From: Pedobacter planticolens
GTDB lineage: Bacteria > Bacteroidota > Bacteroidia > Sphingobacteriales > Sphingobacteriaceae
Length of the DNA stretch: 64,000 bases
NCBI RefSeq assembly: GCF_014172375.1
Contig: NZ_WNXD01000001.1
Location: 372,001 to 436,000, forward strand
Reading direction: 5' to 3'
The notes beneath the pieces were generated by a model. That model was not told the origin of the DNA and ran no database searches. It saw nothing but the letters and a program-made list of their open reading frames with translations. This document shows positions 309-23,152 of this stretch, piece by piece. Numbering within the stretch: position 1 is the first letter of the stretch; the number at the start of each line of letters is the position of its first letter. The position numbers were made by a program, and so were the translations under genes.

Positions 309-487
309 GATTTCTAGTTTTTACAGTTTTGCTTACTCTTTAAAGGCTTTTCAGCAGCCGCCATTTTATAGGGTTTGATGTTATATAAGTCGTATCCAAA
401 ATTTGTTACCCCTTATTTTTAATTTTTTTTTCGCAATGCGGAAGAAACATTAAATTAGAGCACAAAATCCCTCAAAATCACTTGTCA

Positions 488-7947: not shown

Positions 7948-8568
7948 ATGCTAGATGACATAATGTTTATTTACGATAAGAATTATGGGCGAACTATTAG
8001 CCTAATAAACTTATATACAAGTCAAACTTCAGTAAGAAGAGGTAGACGAACTACCGAACAACTGGATTTACTAAGAGTAACTGTAGTATTGCTCCATGCC
8101 ACAATGGAGGATTTTCTTAGAAACTTAATGAACTGGAAACTTCCATTATCGAGCAAAGAGAAAATTAATAAAGTACCTTTATTTACAAATTCTTACGAGC
8201 CAAGAAGGACAAAATTTGAACTTGGAGAATTACTAGAACATTCCGACAAAACTGTTGAGGAAATTATTGAACTTTCCGTGAGAGAATATCTAAACTCGAT
8301 CAGTTTTAATAATACATCAGATATCGTTAAAAATCTTGGCGATATTCAATATATTATGAATAGCAATATGAGATTGCATTTTGCTAAGTTAGATGAAATG
8401 ATTAAACGCCGGCATAATATTGTACATCAGGCAGATAGGGATTTCGTAGTAGGAGAGGGGATACACAAGATAAAATCAATAAACCTTGAGCTTGTTCAAG
8501 GTTGGCAAAATGCAGTTGATAGATTTGTGTTAGAAATCGTTAGATTTACATACAATAATGAAGGATAG
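7948..8568 (+). CDS. HEPN-domain protein (possible RNase)
   Basis: A protein of 206 residues, all helical. The helix LLRVTVVLLHATMEDFLRNLM (about 41-61) and the late motif KRRHNIVHQADRD (Arg155-x4-His160) match the HEPN fold, in particular the RiboL-PSP-HEPN type, whose R-x4-H pair forms the active site in RNase members. HEPN proteins are often toxins or parts of defence systems; this one has no obvious partner gene (no MNT nucleotidyltransferase) on either side. A probable small RNA is encoded on the opposite strand just downstream and reads towards it. The region around is rich in repeats, as in accessory DNA. The domain call is firm; RNase activity is inference. Confidence 0.7.
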   Translation: MLDDIMFIYDKNYGRTISLINLYTSQTSVRRGRRTTEQLDLLRVTVVLLHATMEDFLRNLMNWKLPLSSKEKINKVPLFTNSYEPRRTKFELGELLEHSDKTVEEIIELSVREYLNSISFNNTSDIVKNLGDIQYIMNSNMRLHFAKLDEMIKRRHNIVHQADRDFVVGEGIHKIKSINLELVQGWQNAVDRFVLEIVRFTYNNEG

Positions 8569-8613
8569 TAAATATTATGATAAATCTTAATGATTTTCAA
8601 TTGAAAACCTCTT

Positions 8614-8762
8614 TAAAAAAGAAAGGAGATTATCCATCCAGACTAATCTCCTTTTCTAACCAAATATAAACCTGTATGAACGGGTTATCTTTTAATTTCC
8701 TTCTAACCAAGAGAGGAAATGTTTTATCTCTTTTTTTATCAACCGTTGTTTGTCAACGAATG
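8614..8762 (-). ncRNA. Candidate structured small RNA of about 150 nt
   Basis: On the minus strand a good TATATTTG box (plus 8769-8776) is followed by about 150 bases without a start codon that could give a protein, made of successive hairpins: CGTTG-acaaa-CAACG; AAGAGA...TCTCTT; AACCcGT-tcat-ACaGGTT; and a strong final stem AAAGGAGATTA/TAATCTCCTTT (8622-8632 with 8644-8654), with a loop of 11. This is followed by TTCTTTTTT-like sequence, a classical intrinsic terminator. The motif TTGGTTAGAA appears twice between hairpins. The -33 region overlaps a GTGTA-N5-TACAC palindrome (8793-8807), the same site found before pfkA and susC. I do not recognise the RNA family. Confidence 0.55.
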
Positions 8763-8790
8763 ATGATGCAAATATAGAAATAATTTCCAA

Positions 8791-8809
8791 TAGTGTAAAA
8801 AGTACACTA
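8791..8809. promoter_or_regulatory. Operator-like palindrome, site A (GTGTA-N5-TACAC)
   Basis: Perfect 7-bp arms TAGTGTA and TACACTA around AAAAG. It covers the expected -33 region of the minus-strand promoter for the candidate RNA. The same core recurs at 12646-12660, 15216-15230 and 23138-23152. Confidence 0.7.
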
Positions 8810-9146: not shown

Positions 9147-9394
9147 TGCAGTCTACACAGCACAATTTTTAATGAACAATGCAACGTTTTTAACCTACAA
9201 TGAACTTTTGCAGTCTGCATAGAACAATTTTTAATGAACAATGGAGCGTTTTTAACGGACAATGAACCTTTGCAGTCTGCATAGCTCAATTTTTAATGAA
9301 CAATGGAGCGTTTTTAACGGACAATGAACCTTTGCAGTCTGCATAGAACAATTTTTAATGAACAATGAAGCATTTTTAACGGACATTGCACTTT
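9147..9394. repeat. Tandem array of four 62-bp units
   Basis: The block TGCAGTCT begins at 9147, 9209, 9271 and 9333, giving an exact 62-bp period. Each unit holds two copies of a shorter motif, TTTTTAAYGRACAATG, 21 bases apart, so about eight copies in all. The outer units are more diverged than the two middle ones. The period is not a multiple of three and there is no open frame, so it is not coding. The function is unknown. Confidence 0.85.
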
Positions 9395-9722
9395 TGTTCA
9401 TGAACATTTTGCTTTTGTTACCGTTAAATTGGCAGCATTAAAAAGACTAGCGTTGTATGTTATCTTAAAACTAAGGGGGTAAACCAGCTTTTTTCTTCTG
9501 GTAATAAAACAACTAGAAATTGTTGATGCTTTTAAGACGAAACAGGTTATTACTTGTTTAGCTCATTAAGCTAAAGCGAATTAAAACTATGTTTTCTATG
9601 TGCCTATATGGTAAAAACTATAGCATTACGATACCCAGTCAAGCTGGGTATGACGAATGTGTTATAAAAAATCTGTGTTATCTGTGGCAAAAACTCTTTG
9701 CGTTAAAACCATCAACCAAAAA
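9395..9722. repeat. Non-coding gap with right half of repeat family 1 (9611-9656)
   Basis: No ORF is supported. At 9611-9656 is the right half of the family 1 element (CTATAGCATTACG followed by ATACCCAG-tcaag-CTGGGTAT), in which both arms of the hairpin carry matching changes relative to the other copies (GATTCCCAA becomes GATACCCAG and TTGGGAATG becomes CTGGGTATG). The rest is unique A+T-rich sequence. Confidence 0.65.
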
Positions 9723-9780: not shown

Positions 9781-11630
<1,850 letters not shown>

Positions 11631-11639
11631 TTTATGTAT

Positions 11640-12626
11640 TTAAATGGATAAAACGTGAGTCATTTCTAATAAATCAGCTTCTAACTTGTAGCTGTGTATA
11701 TTTAAGGCTTCTTCTAAACTGGTCAACTTAATTTCGTTGCCACGAAGACCAACCATTTGCATGGTTTCGCCTTTTATCATTTCATTTACAGCAGCATAGC
11801 CTAATCTACTTCCTAAAATACGATCGAAACCGCTAGGGCTACCGCCACGTTGCAAGTGACCTAATATAGTTACTTTGGTATCATAATGTGTAAACTTTCT
11901 TTTTACACTTTTAGCGATATCGTAAGCGCCACCATATTTATTTCCTTCAGAAACAATTACAATACTCGATGATTTCTTGGTATTCACTCCATCTTTTAAT
12001 TTGGAGATTAACTCTTTTAAGGAAGTTTCTTTTTCTGGCAATAATACTGCTTCTGCACCGCTGGCTATGGCTGTTCTTAGTGCAATGCATCCCGAATCTC
12101 TGCCCATTACTTCTATAAAGAATAAACGGTCGTGAGAATCGGCAGTATCTCTAATTTTATCAATCGCTTCTATAATCGTGTTAACGGCAGTATCATAGCC
12201 TAAAGTAAAATCAGAACCATACAAATCGTTATCTATAGTACCCGGAATACCAATTACGTTAACGCCGTATTTTTCGCCAAAACGTTTAGCGCCTGTAAAT
12301 GTTCCATCGCCGCCAATAACAATTAATCCGTCTATATCTTTTGCCTTTAAATTTTTATAAGCGAGTTCCATACCCTCTTCTTCTTTAAAAGCTAAACATC
12401 TGGCTGTTTTTAATATGGTACCACCCATATGTAAAATGTTGCTTACAGAACGGGCATCCATTGGCTTAATGTTGTTATCAATTAAACCTTGATAACCTTG
12501 CATTACGCCAAACATATTTAAGCCATTGTATATTCCAGTGCGAATAACGGCTCTTATGCATGCATTCATACCTGGGGCATCTCCTCCCGAGGTTAATACT
12601 GCTATATTTTTTAGATTAGATTTCAT
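11640..12626 (-). CDS. pfkA: ATP-dependent 6-phosphofructokinase
   Basis: A protein of 328 residues, of bacterial PfkA length. It phosphorylates fructose 6-phosphate, the committed step of glycolysis. Motifs: TSGGDAPGMNACIRAVIR at the ATP site, IGGDGTF (about 104-110; a Gly at the position that is Asp in PPi enzymes, so ATP is the donor), catalytic PGTIDND (Asp132), MGRDSGC and HLQRGGSPS. It is the first gene of the operon with the BadF-type protein and gapA. A GTGTA-N5-TACAC palindrome lies 20 bases upstream of its ATG, in the gap shared with the divergent Nudix regulator. Confidence 0.97.
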   Translation of the reverse strand: MKSNLKNIAVLTSGGDAPGMNACIRAVIRTGIYNGLNMFGVMQGYQGLIDNNIKPMDARSVSNILHMGGTILKTARCLAFKEEEGMELAYKNLKAKDIDGLIVIGGDGTFTGAKRFGEKYGVNVIGIPGTIDNDLYGSDFTLGYDTAVNTIIEAIDKIRDTADSHDRLFFIEVMGRDSGCIALRTAIASGAEAVLLPEKETSLKELISKLKDGVNTKKSSSIVIVSEGNKYGGAYDIAKSVKRKFTHYDTKVTILGHLQRGGSPSGFDRILGSRLGYAAVNEMIKGETMQMVGLRGNEIKLTSLEEALNIHSYKLEADLLEMTHVLSI

Positions 12627-12643
12627 TTTAATATACGAATATA

Positions 12644-12662
12644 CTGTGTATTTATTACACTA
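12644..12662. promoter_or_regulatory. Operator-like palindrome, site B (GTGTA-N5-TACAC)
   Basis: GTGTA at 12646-12650, TTTAT, TACAC at 12656-12660, in the 124-base gap between pfkA (minus) and the Nudix regulator (plus). A TATATTCG box for pfkA overlaps its left edge. The position fits control of pfkA and autoregulation. Confidence 0.7.
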
Positions 12663-12750: not shown

Positions 12751-13440
12751 TTGAAAGAAGTATTACCTGTATTTAATTCGGCGGTCTCAATTGACTGCGT
12801 TTTATTTGGTTTTGATGGCGGAGAGCTCAAAATTTTATTAATAGAGCGAAATGAAGAACCTTTTAAAGATTGGTGGGCTTTGCCCGGTAATTTGGTAGGG
12901 GAGAATGAAAGTGTAGATCAATCGGCCTCGCGTATTTTACATGAGTTGACTGGCTTGAGCGATATTTACATGGAACAGTATTATACTTTTGGCGAGGTAG
13001 ATAGGCATCCCCAAGGTAGGGTAATTACGGTTGCTTATTATGCAATGTTACGCTTAGGCGGAGATAAAGCTTTAAAACCGCTAACTACCTATGCTAAAAA
13101 AGCGCAATGGATAAATGTTAAAGAGTTACCTAAGTTAGGTTTCGACCATCAGCATATATTTGATAAGGGTTTAGAAAAGATTAAGCGAAGAATTAAACAT
13201 TTGCCAATTGCTTTTGAGTTGTTGCCAGAGAAATTTACATTAACTCAAGTACAAAACGTATACGAACTTATTTTAGGTAAGAAACTGGATAAACGTAATT
13301 TTAGAAAAAAGATATTGAGCTTTAAGGTGTTAAAAGAATTAGATGAAAAACAGAAAGGGGTTTCATTTAGAGCTGCAACTTTATATAAGTTTGATAAAAG
13401 AAAGTACGCGAAATTATTTGGTAAGGAGATTTCTTTTTAA
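12751..13440 (+). CDS. Nudix-domain transcriptional regulator (NrtR/AraR-like)
   Basis: A protein of 229 residues: an N-terminal Nudix fold (about 8-140) and a C-terminal winged-helix domain (LPEKFTLTQVQNVYELILG..LDKRNFRKKIL), the layout of the NrtR family of Nudix-related regulators, some of which control sugar use in Bacteroidota. The Nudix box is degenerate: at the REUxEE core it reads RILHEL, so two of the metal-binding glutamates are replaced and hydrolase activity is unlikely. The start is TTG at 12751; no in-frame ATG fits. It is divergent from pfkA, with a palindrome between them that also occurs before susC, the second BadF kinase and the candidate RNA. It is probably their regulator, with an unknown sugar-derived ligand. 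Confidence 0.85.
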   Translation: MKEVLPVFNSAVSIDCVLFGFDGGELKILLIERNEEPFKDWWALPGNLVGENESVDQSASRILHELTGLSDIYMEQYYTFGEVDRHPQGRVITVAYYAMLRLGGDKALKPLTTYAKKAQWINVKELPKLGFDHQHIFDKGLEKIKRRIKHLPIAFELLPEKFTLTQVQNVYELILGKKLDKRNFRKKILSFKVLKELDEKQKGVSFRAATLYKFDKRKYAKLFGKEISF

Positions 13441-15214: not shown

Positions 15215-15231
15215 AGTGTACATTGTACACT
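15215..15231. promoter_or_regulatory. Operator-like palindrome, site C (GTGTA-N5-TACAC)
   Basis: AGTGTA-CATTG-TACACT, 6-bp perfect arms, in the 273-base gap between the SusE/F-like gene and the BadF kinase. Transcription of both is leftward, so the site is upstream of the kinase. Confidence 0.7.
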
Positions 15232-22892: not shown

Positions 22893-22931
22893 AGAAAAAG
22901 CCCGTTTTAATGGTTAAATATTTGGTTATAA

Positions 22932-23137: not shown

Positions 23138-23152
23138 GTGTAATTTATACAC
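23138..23152. promoter_or_regulatory. Operator-like palindrome, site D (GTGTA-N5-TACAC)
   Basis: GTGTA-ATTTA-TACAC in the susC upstream region, about 155 bases before the predicted -33 box and 20 bases from the LacI-type operator. Confidence 0.7.

Follow-up and report, generated by a model that had tools for sequence, protein, structure and literature searches.

A putative small RNA gene of Pedobacter with a Nudix-type operator, linked to glycolytic genes and complementary to susC translation starts

Introduction

The order in which Bacteroidota that degrade glycans use their carbon sources is understood only in part, and to our knowledge these bacteria do not follow the CRP logic of E. coli. 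Control of SusC by small RNAs (sRNAs) has been described only from Bacteroides in the literature that we searched. The FopS sRNAs, reported in Bacteroidaceae, are multicopy RNAs in which a single-stranded seed is followed by a terminator, and some of their members are derived from 3'UTRs. Their predicted targets are enriched in susC-like mRNAs, and translation of susC(BT_3983) is repressed; they have canonical sigma promoters and a 5' seed (PMC11697453). GibS of Bacteroides thetaiotaomicron is a 145-nt, intergenic, sugar-responsive RNA which pairs with translation starts of carbohydrate genes through seeds R1 and R2 and has an extended 5' seed region and the promoter motif PM2, while its regulator is unknown (PMC7366714). 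AraR of Bacteroides is a sugar-released repressor with Nudix and winged-helix domains, which controls arabinose genes via a 21-bp site (PMC4666351); no sRNA was seen in the parts of its described regulon considered here. Spot 42 and SgrS of Enterobacteria are likewise sRNAs that tie the repression of genes for sugar uptake to sugar status, but have no sequence relation to the RNA described here, are under CRP or SgrR control and depend on Hfq. In E. coli, 3'ETS-leuZ is an sRNA made from a tRNA trailer and serves as a sponge for other sRNAs.

Here we describe a putative sRNA locus of Pedobacter planticolens, found in a window of 64,000 nucleotides (the whole stretch of DNA analysed). It has several features of the FopS/GibS type, namely a seed followed by an intrinsic terminator, several paralogues per genome and complementarity to susC starts. 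In contrast to FopS, it belongs to Sphingobacteriaceae, its seed lies directly before the terminator, its promoter carries a Nudix-type operator and it is linked to gap and pfkA; as compared to GibS, it has an identified operator and a 3' seed. Searches of both sRNA forms against Rfam at E 10 and E 1 gave no FopS match, the presence of a FopS model in the release being unconfirmed, and in a class-wide sample the linker core was absent from Bacteroidaceae and confined to Sphingobacteriaceae. Because of the missing Rfam match, the different family and the different promoters, we have not filed the RNA as FopS, and homology is not established. From sequence alone, we infer that it works like FopS and GibS and yet represents an undescribed family with a different promoter logic. 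No sRNA of this kind was found described in Sphingobacteriaceae in the literature searched, coverage of which was partial.

Results

The original prediction had placed an undescribed small RNA with its own promoter, terminator and operator on the minus strand of this locus. The observation was confirmed: a -7 box, the palindrome and a terminator are all present (Table 1) and conserved across the genus. Transcription is inferred, as no transcript data are available. The core palindrome falls at about -30 to -44 relative to the start expected near 8763; the original prediction had it cover the -33 region. A strong terminator with a T tail was also borne out, with about 13 predicted pairs (8621-8653) followed by CTTTTTT, as against the 11-bp stem proposed earlier. 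The sRNA region of about 150 nt lacks a credible ORF, as had been claimed. The longest minus-strand ORF lying fully within the transcript has 26 codons, begins with TTG and is not conserved, as judged from the alignment, and a small-protein reading was dropped. Folding of the full region was better than that of 198 of 200 shuffled sequences (z -2.8). Rfam and tRNA searches of the sRNA region revealed no family or tRNA that accounts for the sequence; isrN (Rfam RF01396) was rejected, scoring 28.7 bits against a gathering threshold of 44.

Table 1. Positions of the sRNA locus, the operators and associated genes in the window
Feature	Position	Strand	Remarks
Small RNA transcript	8612..8763	minus	5' end inferred about 6 nt past the -7 box; 3' end is the T run
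Bacteroidota -7 promoter box TATATTTG	8769-8776	minus	TAnnTTTG kept in all 57 operator-bearing Pedobacter copies
Operator site A, AGTGTA-N5-TACACTA	8791..8808	unstranded	core palindrome GTGTA-N5-TACAC at 8793-8807
Middle hairpin	8695..8720	minus	first TTGGTTAGAA copy (8701-8710) in loop and 3' arm
Small hairpin AACCCGTTCATACAGGTT	8669..8686	minus	sequence invariant in main Pedobacter subtype
Invariant linker, proposed seed TTTATATTTGGTTAGAA	8654..8670	minus	columns (nearly) invariant in alignment A2
Intrinsic terminator with T tail	8614..8653	minus	stem covaries; loop GTCTGGATGGA nearly invariant
gap (glyceraldehyde-3-phosphate dehydrogenase)	9781..10782	minus	Gp_dh_N and Gp_dh_C; upstream neighbour of sRNA
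pfkA (6-phosphofructokinase), first gene of pfkA-kinase-gap	11640..12626	minus	TIGR02482 above cut-off
Operator between pfkA and regulator gene	12646..12660	unstranded	exact GTGTA-N5-TACAC
Nudix-domain regulator (AraR/NrtR type), proposed sRNA repressor	12751..13440	plus	NUDIX, NrtR_WHD and AraR_C
Operator upstream of second BadF/NagK-like kinase gene	15216..15230	unstranded	exact match
Predicted target site ATAACCAAATAT in leader of window susC (start codon 22892)	22918..22929	minus	duplex -11.3 kcal/mol
Operator upstream of susC	23138..23152	unstranded	exact match

The claim of three hairpins held in part. Covariation of the hairpins had been named beforehand as a check, and the terminator passed it clearly: 97.3% of the cells of its stem were paired across copies, and 42 cells were changed on both sides as compared to 12.4 in shuffles, none of 500 shuffles being as high. 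While the stems vary, the terminator loop and the linker are near-invariant. The middle hairpin keeps its place with a quite different stem sequence in most of 8 close relatives, each of these hairpins being individually weak, and the 5' hairpin showed no conservation among the relatives compared. A second Pedobacter subtype reads GCCTGGCTCATAACAGGTT in place of AACCCGTTCATACAGGTT, and the same small hairpin is still possible. The linker is partly unpaired in the predicted ensemble, several of its bases being partly paired. The doubled linker element TTGGTTAGAA, which had been noted earlier as a repeated linker, occurs in this genome alone (1 of 57 Pedobacter copies) and was rejected as a family-defining feature; the copy adjacent to the terminator is the invariant one.

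DNA search retrieved a match to the sRNA in 98 of 99 Pedobacter genomes, and the covariance model found the module in all 54 good-quality genomes of the genus that were searched, usually with 2-5 matches per genome, the weakest of which may be due to chance, or 1-5 paralogues. Conservation is confined to two blocks, operator with promoter, and a 3' module consisting of AACCCGTTCATACAGG, TTTATATTTGGTTAGAAA and the terminator, with a variable part between them. Of 82 distinct Pedobacter copies, 57 carry an operator at a distance of 98-192 nt ahead of the seed, the site being exact in 53, and every one of the 57 has the promoter box 11-16 nt past the operator. The upstream neighbour of most operator-bearing copies is gap. 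In other Pedobacter the module forms the 3'UTR of gap, directly after its stop codon and without its own promoter. Only two such loci (L114 and L121) were long enough to show the region upstream of pfkA, and in both a copy of this operator, altered at its first base, lies ahead of the pfkA-kinase-gap operon. Thus, the module stands behind this operator in both arrangements. The link to gap and pfkA, the family-wide distribution and the single conserved linker copy had all been missed by the original prediction.

Two more copies of the module are present in the same genome, at G000:C1:558715-558797 (-) (L106) and near G000:C1 689060 (+) (L128). A TATATTTG-like or TATTTG box lies close upstream of them and no GTGTA-N5-TACAC was seen; they could be short paralogues under different control.

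The palindrome GTGTA-N5-TACAC has 12 exact sites in the 4.06-Mb genome, compared to 3 for the reversed control. Five of the 12 sites cluster between 8.8 and 23.2 kb of the window (binomial P 4e-10), and are located at the sRNA, between pfkA and the Nudix gene, at the second kinase gene, inside susC and upstream of susC. The regulator gene in this cluster encodes a protein with both a Nudix domain and an NrtR winged helix, as expected of an NrtR/AraR regulator; release of its DNA binding by a sugar or ADP-ribose is inferred. Among solved structures it is closest to BtAraR (E 2.6e-56), a repressor that arabinose releases (PMC4666351). The extended operator motif was found in 149 of 201 Sphingobacteriaceae genomes, and in other genera it also precedes gap, kinase and susC-lacI genes. 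Control by a Nudix sugar regulator, as originally proposed, is thus supported by conservation of operator and promoter along with the RNA, and by the AraR/NrtR type of the protein. Binding of this protein to GTGTA-N5-TACAC is inferred from neighbourhood, without binding data.

Complementarity between the invariant linker UUUAUAUUUGGUUAGAA and susC leaders falls at the start codon. Over 30 susC genes from this genome, linker-leader duplexes averaged -8.7 kcal/mol as compared to -5.9 for 350 other genes (p 2e-7), the background genes being drawn from twenty 20-kb stretches and the window, and none of 300 shuffled linkers matched the susC specificity of the true linker. The susC leaders are paralogous and the genes are not independent; the susC p-values are therefore optimistic. 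When the RNA was scanned in 17-nt windows, the linker gave the largest susC-specific excess, followed by the extra TTGGTTAG copy, which also shows complementarity to these leaders. Counted over the whole genome, linker complements do not exceed those of a reversed control (59 vs 64). Several of them are directly at start codons, and it is their placement, not their number, that is special. When the sampled genes were ranked on pairing energy, about 12 of the first 16 leaders belonged to susC or carbon-catabolism genes, as against at most 1/20 background genes (Fisher about 1e-5 to 2e-4, based on the analyst's own unblinded classification of genes). These leaders include inositol oxygenase, glpK, glpF, uxuA (mannonate dehydratase), GH35, GH88/105, a sodium:solute symporter, homogentisate pathway and fumarylacetoacetate enzymes, and susC; the inositol oxygenase and symporter targets share one 20-kb stretch. 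In two other genera, susC leaders are likewise complementary to the seed in the form it takes there (0 of 200 shuffles), with a weaker signal, and from one genus to another the seed and the susC leaders change in concert (permutation p 0.007). The suggestion that the RNA is a partner for sus-type mRNAs is thus supported by specific complementarity to susC translation starts, repression itself being inferred.

The terminator loop was also considered as a second seed and was rejected, as the only exact complement in the genome, TCCATCCAGAC, is the one opposite the sRNA gene itself. Near-perfect complements of the seed are also present in 3' regions before terminators of this genome, 2 nt past the stop of a pyruvate kinase-like gene (L133:1500 (-)), 5 nt past another ORF (L127:1500 (+)) and downstream of an apt-like gene (L132:1500 (-)), where both gene names were read from the visible N-terminus only. 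These may possibly be sponge or 3'UTR target sites.

Outside the genus, the covariance model (R1) gave only weak matches (E about 1e-5 to 1e-3), suggesting a distribution limited to Pedobacter. This was dropped once a pattern of the operator followed by TTGGTTA showed a shorter form elsewhere, AGTGTA-N5-TACACTA-TMTTTG-...ATCATAATTTAGGTTTATAATTGGTTAG-terminator, with up to about 10 pattern matches per genome. The core AGGTTTATAWTTGGTTAG was detected in 14 of 15 genomes of the same family and in none of 380 other Bacteroidia of the class-wide sample. Holders include Pedobacter, Sphingobacterium, Mucilaginibacter, Parapedobacter, Olivibacter, Arcticibacter, Daejeonella and Paradesertivirga. Two matches elsewhere, on an archaeal and a Prevotellaceae contig, have no terminator and seem fortuitous. 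The operator is missing from many copies in Sphingobacterium and Parapedobacter, and control by the proposed regulator therefore does not apply to the sRNA in every case. Several copies of Mucilaginibacter, Daejeonella and Arcticibacter sit behind a tRNA-like sequence.

The tRNA-like sequence, GGTGGTGAAATTTGGCAGACACACCTCC...GGTTCGANTCCTTC...CAGC, directly precedes the seed-terminator module at L424:1-1600 (+), L433:4000-4660, L386, L398 and L400, with up to three copies within 1.6 kb. Neither ARAGORN (without introns) nor Rfam called a tRNA in it. One possibility is a fusion of the sRNA to a tRNA-Leu-like RNA not described so far. The position of the Mucilaginibacter and Daejeonella copies is reminiscent of 3'ETS-leuZ, which differs in being a sponge.

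Discussion

The linkage of operator, promoter, linker and terminator, the covariation of the terminator and the complementarity to start codons are shown by the sequence. The most likely reading, in our view, is that the locus encodes a trans-acting sRNA of catabolite-repression type, freed together with glycolysis by an AraR-like Nudix repressor, where transcription, repressor binding and repression are all inferred. The Nudix repressor would sit on GTGTA-N5-TACAC and block the sRNA promoter, pfkA-kinase-gap, the second kinase and susC, and a sugar or sugar-derived ligand would free it, so that glycolytic genes and sRNA would be made together; both these steps are inferred. The next step has support from the sequence: the RNA would expose part of its invariant linker, with the core UUGGUUAG, before the terminator, and this core is predicted to pair with sequences of the CUAACCAAAUNUAAA type, located at the start codon or immediately ahead of it in the mRNAs of susC and of other genes for carbon uptake and catabolism. 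Finally, and again by inference, translation of the targets would be blocked and alternative glycans would not be imported during flow of the preferred sugar. The evidence for this mechanism is comparative and computational. Against it stand the lack of transcript data, a regulator-operator link that rests on neighbourhood and the many operator-less copies elsewhere.

A bolder reading is that Sphingobacteriaceae run a global, RNA-based carbon catabolite repression through one invariant anti-susC/anti-catabolic seed, supplied from Nudix-repressed genes, from the 3' end of the gap operon and from trailers of tRNA-like RNAs, and silencing dozens of uptake systems in translation once glycolysis is on. 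Taken jointly, we lean slightly against this reading.

Among the alternatives, the strongest, though still unlikely, is that a susC-directed sRNA acts mainly as a brake on the sugar system of its own regulon, a feedback or sugar-stress device similar to SgrS, and not in global repression. The susC of the window has both an operator and a seed match at -11.3 kcal/mol (Table 1), and the sRNA adjoins gap and pfkA; however, the predicted targets are spread across many susC and unrelated catabolic genes. It is unlikely that the operator belongs to another regulator and that the Nudix protein is an unrelated neighbour. The assignment is indeed positional, and a LacI-type gene is also present in the cluster, but a site lies between pfkA and the Nudix gene, and the closest solved relative of the Nudix protein is a sugar-responsive repressor. 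Sites of LacI type are normally of a different appearance, which also counts against this alternative.

We also consider it improbable that the linker is a site for an RNA-binding protein (an RRM protein similar to RbpB), its complementarity to susC being secondary or arising via a protein that also binds the leaders. In favour of this, the invariance over 17 nt is longer than a usual seed, and RbpB of Bacteroides interacts with FopS sRNAs and counteracts the action of FopS on susC mRNA (PMC11697453). However, the match in the leaders is the complement and not the same sequence, and is concentrated at start codons. Least credible of all is that the module is no more than a mobile terminator element that has spread widely, the transcripts of which have no regulatory role. 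Copies do stand behind gap or a tRNA-like sequence as well as in further 3' regions, and a terminator is almost always present; but the stems vary while linker and loop are near-invariant, a conserved promoter and operator belong to many of the copies, and the complementarity of the linker is specific to susC.

On the preferred reading, a sugar-released sRNA directed at susC and other catabolic mRNAs, the locus resembles a missing switch for taking the best sugar first, its function being inferred. It provides soil and water Bacteroidota with a specific candidate, with named operator, regulator, seed and target sites, and suggests that anti-susC sRNAs exist in a second family with a different genetic wiring, coupled to glycolysis.

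Three further features of the window may be recorded. A HEPN (RiboL-PSP) domain gene at 7948-8568 (+) runs towards the sRNA terminator and ends close to it. A repeat of about 60 nt (...TTTTTAACGGACAATGAACCTTTGCAGTCTGCATAG...) is present in about 4 imperfect copies at 9150-9400, between the sRNA and gap. At 330-364 (-), a match to the DUF805b cis-regulatory RNA scored above the Rfam gathering score.
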